Under the pieces are notes generated by a model. That model saw only the letters and a program-made list of their open reading frames with translations, searched no databases and had not been told where the DNA came from. Below, one piece after another: positions 39,869 through 45,865 of a DNA stretch of 64,000 nucleotides (position 1 is its first letter; every line of letters begins with the position of its first letter). Location of the stretch: NCBI RefSeq assembly GCF_937616625.2, contig NC_065570.1:9682001-9746000 (forward strand), written 5' to 3'. Origin of the DNA: Mercurialis annua. Lineage: Eukaryota; Streptophyta; Magnoliopsida; Malpighiales; Euphorbiaceae. The position numbers and the translations under genes were made by a program.

Positions 39869-41281
39869 GTGTAATTTTCTCAAAAACTAAATTCGATAAA
39901 CTATTTGTTTTTTCTTACAGAGTATCTCTTTTGTTTCCTTGATGTGATCAAATAGGCTTTGATTCTCTTAACAATGTCCCAATTCGTTCCAACTCTAAAG
40001 GCTTGTAATGAAACTCAATGTGACAAAGCCAGCAAGATACATGAAGTGGTCTTCTTCCTTGCAATTTATTTGATCTCCGCCGGAACCGGAGGGCATAAAC
40101 CTTCTCTCGAGAGTTTCGGAGCCGATCAATTCGATGATAATCACTGCGAAGAACGAAAGAAAAAGATGACATTCTTTAACTGGTGGAATCTTGGACTTTG
40201 CTGTGGACTTCTCCTTGGTGTGACAGTTATTGTTTACATTCAAGATCATGTCAATTGGGGAGTTGCGGATTCTGTTCTTACACTTGTTATGGCCATTTCG
40301 CTTGCTATCTTCCTTATCGGACGACCATTTTATCGATATCGAGCAACTTCAGGAAGCCCCTTCACCCCGATGTTGCAGGTTCTTGTAGCTGCCATAAGAA
40401 AACGGAATCTGCATTGTCCTTTGAATTCAGATCAATTACATGAACTGCCAAATTCTTCTATGGTAGGAGGGAGGCTTCTTTGCCACACCAAGAAGCTTAT
40501 GTAAGTAACATAAGGTCGCAAGCTAGCTTTTCAAAAATTATAAATTTATCTTATTTGACCAATTCGCTGAGATTATTTAATTTTACAAAATCGATTTAAC
40601 TAAGTCTACATGGAATATGCCAAATTGGCATAAAAAAAATTATGATTTATCCGAAACACGTGTCATCTCAATCGGCAATTTTTGATAGATTTCTAGCGAA
40701 TTTATCTAATTGAGATAGTTTTGTAATTTTTAAAAAAATTAGTAAAATTTATAAAAAGATCGAAATATTCGTTTTTTTTAACCATTAAACCTCTATTAAA
40801 TTTATGCGGGTTTGGGTGGAACTTTATTTGAATTGTATTGAAATTCCTCTCCATTGTAACTAATTGCAGGTTTCTTGACAAAGCGGCTATTATTGAAAAT
40901 ACAGAAAATTCTTCTGGGAAGACAACTCCATGGAGACTTGCAACTGTAACTCAGGTTGAAGAATTAAAGCTTCTTCTTAATATGATCCCTATATGGCTAT
41001 CAACTCTACCATTCGGGATTTGCGTTGCGCAAACATCAACATTCTTCACTACCACATAAGTCACTTTCAGCAACACCGGACAAGTGTTGCTGTATGTACA
41101 AAAACTGTTGCCTTAGGTCTACTGTAACGCTTTTCAATCGGCTACATTTGCGGCCGCTGCAATAGGTGTTTTTAGCTATTGCAACAGTTGTTTTATACAG
41201 TTGTAACAGAAATAAAATTGCTGCAATTAATAACAAAGGCAACGGTTTTAAACATCTATTGCAATAATTTTATAATGCATT

Positions 41282-41470
41282 TTAGGCAACATTTGTTTTT
41301 ATAAGGCAACGATTTATATAGTACTTTAGGCAACATTTATTTTTATAAGGCAACGATTTGTATAGTACTTTAGGCAACATTTATTTTTATAAGGCAACAA
41401 TTTGGATAGTACTTTAGGCAACATTTGTTTTTGTAAGGCAACGATTTGAATAGTACTTTAGGCAACACTT
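41282..41470. repeat. CACTA subterminal tandem repeat, 44 bp x 4
   Basis: Four units, each starting TTAGGCAACATT and containing ATAAGGCAACGATTT, then TAGTACT. In CACTA elements such subterminal repeats are the binding sites of the transposon-encoded DNA-binding protein; the assignment here is by analogy. Confidence 0.8.
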
Positions 41471-41874
41471 TAAACAACGGTTTATGTAGAAAACGCAACA
41501 GTTTATATTTGAGGAACATAAATTAAAAGCGGAAACTAAAATTATTCGCTAAATTAGAAACAAAAAAACATTCACCAAAATGGGATCAACATAAAATATT
41601 CACCAATATTAGAAAACGGAAAATATTCATAAAATTCAAAATCGGAAAATTTTCTATTCTCCATTACATCACAAATAGAAAATGTTCACCAAAATATTCA
41701 TCAAAAATAACGATTCTACTACTAAACATTGAGCGCCTTTTCTGTTGCGAAATCAGTTTCCTCAAATATCTTCATGAAATCCTACAAATCACATAAACAA
41801 ATATATTCAGAATATGCAAAAAATCACAATTAAGATAAAAAAAAATAAAATACCAAATTAGGAGGGGCAAAAAT

Positions 41875-42500
41875 GAAAAAGATGGGTCAAAAGTTCCATC
41901 AAAAAATAGCTAAACATCCAACGTAGCCCATACCAAGTAATATTTTGTACTTTGTAATTCTTCTGAGGCCTTTCTAACTGCAAGAAGTAGAAGTTTGATA
42001 AATTTCCATATATGTAGCACAAATGACTTGACATATTTGGCAGTAAAACTAAGGAAATCAATGGTCAACACTAGATATAACCGCAATTTCAACTCCAGAA
42101 GACTAACCAGAAAATTGCATTTAGTTTCCTATCTCAAATCTAATCAAATAAATAAATTTGATCCTATGTTCTAATATAAATTATTGCAGAACAAACTTTA
42201 GCCACAAAATCATAATGCACATAAAAACCACAAACCTGCGGGGCATAGGCATTGAAGCTTGTAATTGACCCAGCAATATAGAGGGGTGCATATATCAAGT
42301 AAGCAAGGTATATGCTGGAGGAGAAATTGGCATCTGAGACACCTCTCTCCTGAATAAAGTGAACAAGGACAAAAATCTCTTTTAATGTGGCAATGGATAA
42401 CAAGTACATTAAAAACTGAGCTTATGATAAACAAGCATCTAACCTTTAGAAATTGGTAGCAGGTTTTTCCTGACTTGCAAACATAGCAACGTTTAGAATG
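41875..42500 (-). pseudogene. Captured GUP1-like MBOAT acyltransferase fragment
   Basis: Three exon pieces on the - strand: about 42500-42444 (RCYVCKSGKTCYQFLK), 42349-42236 (38 codons, containing SSSIYLAYLIYAPLYIAG) and 41977 down to about 41875 (WYGLRWMFSYFLMELLTH). They join in frame across introns with GT/AG borders (LK|ERG and APQ|LER). This is the membrane-bound O-acyltransferase family, where plant GUP1-like proteins carry a YAPLYIAGP block; here the final P is S. Only an internal stretch is present, with no start or catalytic His region, so it is a transposon passenger, not a gene. Identification is from remembered family motifs. Confidence 0.78.
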
Positions 42501-42890
42501 CTTCTGAGATCACCAGTTCAGTAAGATATCAAAGAAACTATATGGTCTTTATGCATAGTAATTTACAGTTGACTCAAACGCACACTATAAACAGAACATA
42601 GTAGCATAGAAAGATAACCAATCTCAGCAATTAAACACCATAATTAAGATTTCAGTTCTGCAGTGTCTATATACATGTACGATCACTATACAATGAACCT
42701 TTAATCTAAAAAGAAGCCATGGCTGCTGGAAATTTGGTCATTTGTGTAGATACCGAGAAGACAGTTTCAGTACCATACTGATAGAAATAGAAAGTAGCTA
42801 ATTTAGCATCATTTTGCTAATTAACAGGGTTGATAAACTTTAAAAATGCACAAAAAGGCTAGTTTCAGCTCACCTCTTGTGTCACCACCA

Positions 42891-43319: not shown

Positions 43320-43484
43320 TTAAAACCAGCATCTTTGGCCAAGCAAAAACAATCAGCGACAGCAGCCACTGTATGCCCTCTATTATAACATCCTCATATG
43401 TGCTTTGCACTCCAATCTCAAGTCGTATACAACCATAAGAAAGCATTTAACGTAAATGAGGTCCGAGACAATAATCTGGCCTCC
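43320..43484 (-). pseudogene. Captured ELP3 (Elongator subunit 3) exon fragment
   Basis: After a TTTACAG acceptor the - strand reads RPDYCLGPHLR, then a stop in place of the expected Gln, then [20 protein letters not shown]. After a deletion of about 11 bp that shifts the frame it continues as [20 protein letters not shown]. This is the near-invariant radical-SAM region of ELP3, the catalytic subunit of the Elongator tRNA-modifying complex. The stop and frameshift make it non-functional. Confidence 0.85.
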
Positions 43485-43690
43485 TGTAAATAAACAGAAG
43501 TAATTCTAAACTAATTTTTGTAGTAGAGGAGCACCTCATTAAATAATTACATTACATATATTTACATAGCTCTAAGTGTCGAGTGATAATCAATCAAGAA
43601 TTGCTCATCCATTATAAGAAACCTGATATCACATAAAATCGCATGTAATTTACCGTAAACTGAAGCAAAAATTAAAAGTGAATAGCATAC

Positions 43691-44030
43691 CTAAAAAAAG
43701 AGAAGAGACGGGTAAACTAGTCCTAGTAGTAGCTTTAGGAGAAGAAGCTGTTGTAGCACCAGCTTCAAGTAAAAGAGCTCTATCATCATTAGCTGGCTTA
43801 ACGGTGTTGTTTCCCAATTTAGTTAAACCAATATCAGAATGCCTACTACCAGATTAATCAAAACAAAACAAAAATAAGCAGCATAACCTAATAATTCAAT
43901 TAACAATGAAAAAACATGTGATAATGTAAAACTTACGCCTTAGAAGCAACAACATTTTTGTTATACTCCAAGAACTCGGGGTAAATCCAAGCAGAAAACA
44001 TATAGGTACAGTTCCAAGAAAAAGCGACAC
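43691..44030 (-). pseudogene. Captured RWA (reduced wall acetylation) fragment
   Basis: Two - strand exons, 44030-43937 and 43845-43691, joined by an intron with GTAAGT and TAG borders. They encode VSLFLGTVPI, then after a one-base frameshift FSAWIYPEFLEYNKN, and across the splice SKARHSDIGLTKLGNN and DDRALLLEAG. This is the N-terminal part of RWA/CAS1-like Golgi proteins needed for O-acetylation of cell-wall polymers. Only the first helix and the hydrophilic loop are present. Confidence 0.85.
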
Positions 44031-45865
44031 CTGATTAACATTTTTTAAAGTACACAAGTGAGAAACAAAACACAATGAGGTGATAATGAAGATAAACAAA
44101 ATACAATTAGGTGATAATCAGCCCTAACATATATGCAAAATATAAACAAGATCAACACAAAAATAAAACCTAACATTTTACAAACAGAACAAACAATAAA
44201 TTCTAACATATATACAAAATATAATTGCAATTATACTTACTTAGCATGTGAAGACATCGAAGACACCTTCAAATTTTCAGTAAACCCTAGAAATTGAAGA
44301 GATGGCAGTAAACCCTAATATAAATACAAAAACGCGAAGAGAGCAACGAAAATGAGAGAAATGAAAAAGAAATTGAAAATAATCAAGGTGAAGAGAGATG
44401 GCGATTACCTTTAATCGATGGAGAAGAGAGATTATGAAAATTAAATTTGAGAGAAACTTTCAGAGCTCTGAAAATGAAATTGAAAAACATAACAGTAATT
44501 AGCTTATTCTCAAACTTGATAAAGTGATGGGCTTCAGAGGCCTTCAATTTAAGCTAATTACCGTGTGATTAGTTTTGCACCAATCTCTGGTATTCGAGGC
44601 CTTCAATTACTTTTATCAAATTCTTATCAAAAAATCCATTGGTATTTACATAACAAATCTTAAATTCTTATCAATAAAATGTTTGTGTATTTTTTTTTTT
44701 TTGAGAAAAATGTTTGTGTATTTTGATTTGTACCAATTTCCGATATTTACATAACTATATTATAAGTCCATTGGTATAAATGTTTCTGTATTTTGATTTA
44801 TTATATTTATTTTATCTTGATTGAAGTCTCCTGGGGCCTTCAATCTAAGTTATTTATTGTTTTTAAAATTTTATTGTAATATTGAGTAGTTTATTGTTTA
44901 TTAGGACTTATAATTTTTTTTTTTTTTTTGGTGAAAAGGACTTATAATATTGTTAAAAATATAATTTGGTTTGAGGCAATAAAAGACAACATTTTAAAAG
45001 TGTTGCTAGATTCAAGCAAACTGTTGCAGTTTCTTAAGCTAATGCAACAGTTTTTCATATCTGCTGCCTGATGTTGTAAATTTTTGAATTTTGTTAATTT
45101 CGTTGCAACGGTTTTTAACTGTAACATTTTTGTTGCCTTATATATACTATTGCAACAGTATTGAAAGTGTTGCTATGCTAGTGTTGCTGAAAGTGACTTA
45201 TGTGGTAGTGCTTCATCAAACAAGCCACAATGTTGAACAGAAATATCGGGAACAATTTTATGATTCCTTCAGCTTCGGTATATGCGCTCAGTGCCATCGG
45301 AACGATAATCTCCGTAGCCACGTACGAGAAACTCCTAATACCGATGTTAAGAAAGGCGAGAGGAAACGAACGAGGCATAACAATACTTCAAAGAATCGGC
45401 ATTGGCATAGGCTTTTGCATTATTTCTATGATCATCGCAACTTTGGTCGAGAACAAGCGACTGAATTTTGTCAATAACAAACCCTTAAATGGCTCGTTTT
45501 CGATGAGCGTGTTTTGGTTAGCTCCACAGTATCTGATAGTTGGTATAGGAGACGGGTTCGCGTTGGTGGGATTGCAGGAATTTTTTTATGGTCAAGTTCC
45601 TGATTCAATGAGGAGTTTAGGTATTGCATTTTACCTTAGTGTGATTGGAGCTGGAAACTTCCTTAGTAGTATTCTGATAACGGTTGTTGACGGCGTTAGT
45701 GAAAAATATGGGAAGAGTTGGTTTGGTAAGGATTTAAATAGTAGTCGTTTAGACTTATTTTACGGGCTTTTGGCGGTTATGACTGGCGCGAGTTTGATTG
45801 TGTATGTGTTCTTGGCTCGGCGATATCCGTATAAAAATGTGCAGGGCAATGAATCAGTTGCTTGA

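Follow-up and report, generated by a model that had tools for sequence, protein, structure and literature searches.

A CACTA-type element carrying pieces of host genes in the last exon of an NPF gene of Mercurialis annua

The interrupted NPF gene and the ends of the element

Three tandem copies of an NPF (PTR2) transporter gene of the POT/NPF family lie at 1371-4139, 20432-24424 and 39324-45865 in the DNA analysed here, a 64-kb window (64,000 nucleotides) of the Mercurialis annua contig NC_065570.1 (positions 9,682,001 to 9,746,000 of the forward strand; coordinates below are those of the window). The last exon of the third copy is split by a complete CACTA-type element of 4,164 bp at 41047-45210, whose interior holds stretches resembling four host genes: RWA, ELP3, an MFSD5-like transporter and a GUP1-like acyltransferase.

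An earlier note on this DNA, made from the sequence alone, had described a CACTA element with perfect 30-bp terminal repeats, and the ends bear this out. The terminal inverted repeats (TIRs), located by a repeat search, start CACTACCACATAAG (CACTA) and are complementary at 30/30 positions (100%). The trinucleotide CTT stands directly before and directly after the element, and the uninterrupted paralogue has a single CTT at the equivalent site. The five flanking bases on either side are unequal (TTCTT and CTTCA), so the target-site duplication (TSD) is 3 bp long and not 5 bp. The motif GCAAC is clustered inside both ends, with 15 occurrences on the two strands in 41047-41520 and nine in 44960-45210, compared with six in the 3.4-kb interior. 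As many as 11 copies lie within 300 bp, and 100 mononucleotide shuffles of the window never gave more than four, a comparison that ignores dinucleotides and concerns a motif picked after inspection of the sequence. The left array is partly a 44-bp tandem repeat of 4.3 copies (41281-41472). CACTA-starting TIRs, a 3-bp TSD and clustered direct and inverted subterminal repeats are features of the CACTA (En/Spm) class. The element is single-copy in the window, where no further copy of the TIR was found (next best site, 20/30 positions). The 30-bp TIR had no match in the viral contig collection, and an Rfam search of 40500-46500 at the gathering threshold gave none.

The site before insertion is represented by the second NPF copy. 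When the flanks are joined with one CTT, the exon is open to its stop codon, and it aligns with 23558-24369 of the uninterrupted copy over 812 bp with no gaps and 90.1% identity, which makes that copy an exact empty site. The joined exon is more distant from the first NPF copy (3264-4078), with 73% identity and 11 gap positions. Pfam PTR2 matches cover the upstream exon (39956-40504) and the sequence after the insertion (45209-45862).

Host-gene pieces between the ends

All four cargo fragments lie on the minus strand. The clearest is the MFSD5-like piece, which matches Pfam MFS_5 with an E value of 2e-28 (99.8 bits against a cut-off of 25; profile positions 242-317 of 356). This piece is also the longest stop-to-stop open reading frame lying wholly within the element, at 110 codons. 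The ELP3 piece matches PDB entry 8ptx_C, an Elongator complex protein 3 chain, at an E value of 3.9e-21. Ten distinct PDB sequences were matched at E ≤0.001, nine of them named as ELP3 family or Elongator complex protein 3; the tenth, 7on7 (SAKe6BE-L2), was matched over 21 residues at 1.7e-5.

Pfam and structural comparisons suggest that a third piece is likely an MBOAT acyltransferase. Three HHAT sequences in the PDB are collinear with most of it at non-significant E values of 0.27-0.33, behind an unrelated chitinase at 0.17. The name GUP1 for this piece is our assumption, and its first exon piece was assigned through what we take to be a motif of the family. The fourth piece was compared with some 104 residues that we take to be the N-terminus of an Arabidopsis RWA protein. 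Joined by hand, it scores 193 with BLOSUM62 against these letters, and the maximum in 1,000 shuffles was 49. Unjoined, the three expected pieces are the top three of the 2,763 open reading frames of at least 15 residues in the window, scoring 69, 60 and 58, with the next at 40. The piece is thus probably RWA, the evidence being good if these reference letters are right. Three other stretches of the element were searched for a fifth fragment, and had no Pfam family at E ≤1.

The exon pieces retain the marks of genomic DNA. AG precedes all eight, and GT follows seven, the exception being the last GUP1-like piece, which is cut off by a breakpoint. The borders were set by visual inspection, knowing which signals to expect, and the count is therefore not blind. 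Pieces of the same protein are separated by 94 and 68 bp in the RWA-like stretch and by 94 and 258 bp in the GUP1-like one. The kept splice borders, and the intervening stretches between pieces of one protein, support capture of genomic DNA rather than cDNA, as the earlier note had argued from retained introns.

Three of the four cargo pieces have lost their reading frame: the RWA-like one by a frame change, the ELP3 one by a frame break together with an in-frame stop, and the MFSD5-like one close to its end. The three GUP1-like pieces are open throughout in a single frame. In the joined cargo exons the three frames are interrupted by 13, 18 and 14 stops, and the longest open stretch is 139 codons. 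With no long frame crossing these exons, the cargo taken together is now unlikely to form a coding unit. Its decay contrasts with the perfect match between the two ends and with the undecayed host exon, and for this reason it probably predates the present insertion.

Table 1 Features of the element and of the exon that it interrupts
Feature	Position	Strand	Basis
NPF (PTR2) last exon, split by the element	40868..45865 (40868-41046 + 45214-45865)	+	alignment to 23558-24369; Pfam PTR2
TSD CTT, left copy	41044..41046	.	sequence; paralogue with one CTT at 23722
Left TIR, 30 bp, starts CACTA	41047..41076	+	100% complementary to 45181-45210
Left subterminal region, 15 GCAAC (13 +, 2 -), includes 44-bp array	41047..41520	.	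motif and tandem-repeat search
GUP1/HHAT-like MBOAT exon piece 3 (likely), 3' breakpoint ~41873, no donor	41873..41977	-	Pfam MBOAT, borders
GUP1/HHAT-like MBOAT exon piece 2 (likely)	42236..42349	-	Pfam MBOAT, borders
GUP1-like exon piece 1, 20 residues	42444..42503	-	AG/GT borders; outside MBOAT-matched stretch (residues 34-87)
MFSD5-like (MFS_5) transporter fragment, frame lost near end	42874..43117	-	Pfam MFS_5; splice borders
ELP3 fragment (radical-SAM domain), in-frame stop and frame break	43319..43483	-	PDB, Pfam, splice borders
RWA-like exon piece C	43566..43622	-	assumed RWA letters; borders
RWA-like exon piece B	43691..43842	-	assumed RWA letters; borders
RWA-like exon piece A, with frame break	43937..44030	-	assumed RWA letters; borders
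5'-leader-like stretch (putative): CT-rich, ATG, GTAAGT, two AGGGTTT (44310-44318, 44281-44290)	44235..44470	-	sequence; reading inferred
Right subterminal region, 9 GCAAC (3 +, 6 -)	44960..45210	.	motif search
Right TIR, 30 bp	45181..45210	-	complementary to left TIR
TSD CTT, right copy	45211..45213	.	sequence and empty site in paralogue

Nature, origin and direction of the cargo

We consider it very probable that the element is a CACTA (En/Spm-type) transposon belonging to the non-autonomous Pack-CACTA group, with degraded genomic pieces that match MFSD5-like, ELP3, MBOAT/GUP1-like and, by the assumed reference letters, RWA genes. Host coding DNA between the ends, the mark of a Pack-CACTA element, is provided by the MFSD5-like and ELP3 pieces and more weakly by the MBOAT and RWA pieces. 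Of the four host genes named in the earlier note, the MFSD5-like transporter is upheld by Pfam and ELP3 by the PDB; GUP1-like was right in kind, at sub-threshold scores, and RWA is less firm, being tied to the assumed Arabidopsis letters only.

Several observations weigh against this reading. Pfam searches covering seven distinct pieces of the element (rather than all its open reading frames) recognised no transposase, and no second copy of the element was seen in the window, so that mobility in trans is something we infer. The MBOAT matches of the GUP1-like piece (E values of 4.9e-4 and 2.4e-4, 20.9 bits) both fall below the 27-bit cut-off, and the Radical_SAM match of the ELP3 piece (1.5e-5, 25.7 bits) falls below its cut-off of 29.5. 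For the RWA-like piece, whose identity depends wholly on the assumed letters, neither Pfam nor the PDB gave anything significant, each returning one chance match (the family Strep_pep at 0.085 and a PDB row at 0.73). Pattern searches for it found 464 stretches in prokaryotic contigs and 48 in viral contigs, none confirmed in either, both being poor places to look for a plant gene. The TSD of rice and maize CACTA elements is given as 5 nt (PMC8903248), compared with 3 bp here. The route proposed in a review for Pack-CACTA capture is tandem insertion followed by aberrant excision (PMC13317346). A fusion by tandem insertion could leave internal remnants of TIRs, of which none was found: the best internal site, at 44925, reaches 19/30 positions, a score equalled or surpassed (19 or 20) by four sites in the window that lie outside the element. 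Remnants of ends between the pieces could have decayed or been deleted.

The host gene offers support as well as reservations. Over 270 codons, the second and third NPF copies differ by 49 silent and 24 residue-changing substitutions. The corresponding nonsynonymous (dN) and synonymous (dS) divergences between the host exon and its intact paralogue are 0.039 and 0.387, a ratio near 0.1, but this pairwise ratio spans the time since duplication, perhaps mostly before the insertion, and gives no insertion date. By this measure the interrupted exon still looks like a constrained one, and the insertion is probably young relative to the duplication of the NPF gene. At the 5′ end of the third copy (39275-39400), the start codon of the second copy is missing, and the alignment has gaps of 5, 2 and 10 bp. 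The interrupted copy may start elsewhere, or may have been impaired before or apart from the element. Because this 5′ end differs from that of the paralogue, the claim that the element knocked out the NPF gene is weakened.

If the element is a Pack-CACTA transposon, its cargo would have been acquired at the DNA level ahead of the present insertion, whether all at once or in several steps, and the transposase of an autonomous relative, recognising the TIRs and subterminal repeats, would have moved it in trans. It would now be passenger DNA, with the interruption of the NPF gene, perhaps already impaired at its 5′ end, as its main local effect. No parents of the cargo were seen in the window, where the element has 63 matches at E ≤1 to the remaining sequence, the longest of 62 bp and the best of 53 bp (4.3e-4).

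The four pieces might have been acquired not in separate events but at one time, from a donor that was already mosaic, such as a different transposon or a short piece of repaired DNA. Their closeness (the RWA-like and ELP3 exon borders are 82 bp apart) and their common orientation would suit such a donor, but the unequal decay of the pieces, with the GUP1-like one open and the ELP3, MFSD5-like and RWA-like ones broken, fits different capture times. This is a small sample of pieces, and we regard a single mosaic capture as possible but doubtful.

The shared orientation, correctly reported in the earlier note, was taken there as a hint of selection or of a mechanism favouring one direction. Cargo able to splice might have been selected for, or the right end of the element might hold a promoter. 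Consistent with this, all four pieces are on the minus strand, and a leader-like stretch lies upstream of the first. Moreover, the five fragments of the soybean element Tgm-Express1 are spliced as exons into one transcript (PMC1947982), which would imply a single direction there too, although the word orientation is absent from that paper's main text. However, four fragments agree in direction by chance with a probability of 2 x 0.5^4 = 0.125, or 1 in 8, and three of them have lost their frames, so the hint is not supported; two elements are also too few for a rule of orientation. We therefore think a directional process improbable.

The leader-like stretch can be read as a captured promoter region, which is a guess; its two AGGGTTT motifs are, we assume, what is called telo-box-like. 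Two minus-strand AATAAA motifs, at 41341 and 41385 within the left 44-bp repeats, lie downstream of the cargo and could serve as polyadenylation signals. If the element is transcribed, chimeric RNAs could arise through its splice sites, as they do in Tgm-Express1, but antisense to the NPF gene. A more far-reaching version, which we judge very improbable, is that a host-derived leader and promoter at 44235-44470 drives one spliced chimeric RNA over all four fragments, antisense to NPF, from which small or regulatory RNAs would touch the RWA, ELP3, MFSD5-like, GUP1-like and NPF genes at once.

Finally, nothing in the analysis spoke for a native gene cluster or an assembly join in place of a transposon insertion. 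The TIRs match perfectly, the target site is duplicated and the paralogue shows the exact empty site, all of which contradict such a reading, and its probability is negligible.

Related elements and other features of the window

Read as a Pack-CACTA transposon, the element has several counterparts in other plants. The statement in the earlier note that multi-gene capture by CACTA elements is documented is correct for soybean and maize (PMC1947982, PMC8903248). Closest in kind is soybean Tgm-Express1, described by Zabala and Vodkin as a 5.7-kb CACTA element with five unrelated gene fragments including exons and introns (PMC1947982). Both elements carry several unrelated host-gene fragments with their exons and introns kept, and both are inserted in a gene. 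Tgm-Express1 lies in an intron and its cargo is spliced into the host transcript, whereas the present element lies in an exon, carries four fragments in 4.2 kb that are antisense to its host, and drew on other donors.

The Tpn1 family of Ipomoea nil has 28-bp TIRs, a TSD of 3-5 bp and subterminal tandem repeats, and in its non-autonomous members the interior is replaced by host genic DNA (PMC5105172). The present element likewise combines CACTA ends with an interior of host genic DNA, and its 3-bp TSD falls within the Tpn1 range. Its TIRs are 30 bp long rather than 28, and the likeness drawn here is one of kind. Pack-CACTA and other Pack-TYPE elements of Arabidopsis, rice and maize are also non-autonomous TIR elements with coding DNA, and were retained in that survey only if they occurred in clusters of copies (PMC8903248). 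CACTA elements of Chenopodium resemble the element described here in their subterminal repeats, in a duplication of 3 bp and in having captured host fragments, but the cases described have transposase domains beside the fragments (PMC8978399), unlike the seven pieces searched here with Pfam.

The element is ordinary in kind and well preserved. Capture of this type is already known from soybean, maize and morning glory, and the present case leaves the understanding of the process unchanged. As an instance of CACTA-mediated exon shuffling it is clear-cut: both ends are intact, the target site is duplicated, the window also contains the empty site, and the cargo keeps introns and splice borders. 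The insertion interrupts one NPF copy of a tandem cluster. The unequal decay of the cargo pieces could serve to order the captures in time once the parents are known.

At 46247-46408, some 400 bp past the stop codon of the NPF gene, a 66-bp unit occurs in two perfect tandem copies, overlapped by a 32-bp repeat. A second, diverged tandem array with offsets of about 110-120 bp occupies 48734-49611. A 1.85-kb stretch at 27346-29196 is 67% identical to its own reverse complement, resembling a foldback element, and two short repeats related to each other, at 16609-16857 and 17801-18051, each match themselves in inverted orientation and resemble miniature inverted-repeat transposable elements (MITEs). 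On the minus strand, 51146-52774 is an uninterrupted frame of 543 codons with glyoxal oxidase domains (Glyoxal_oxid_N, 2.9e-106).

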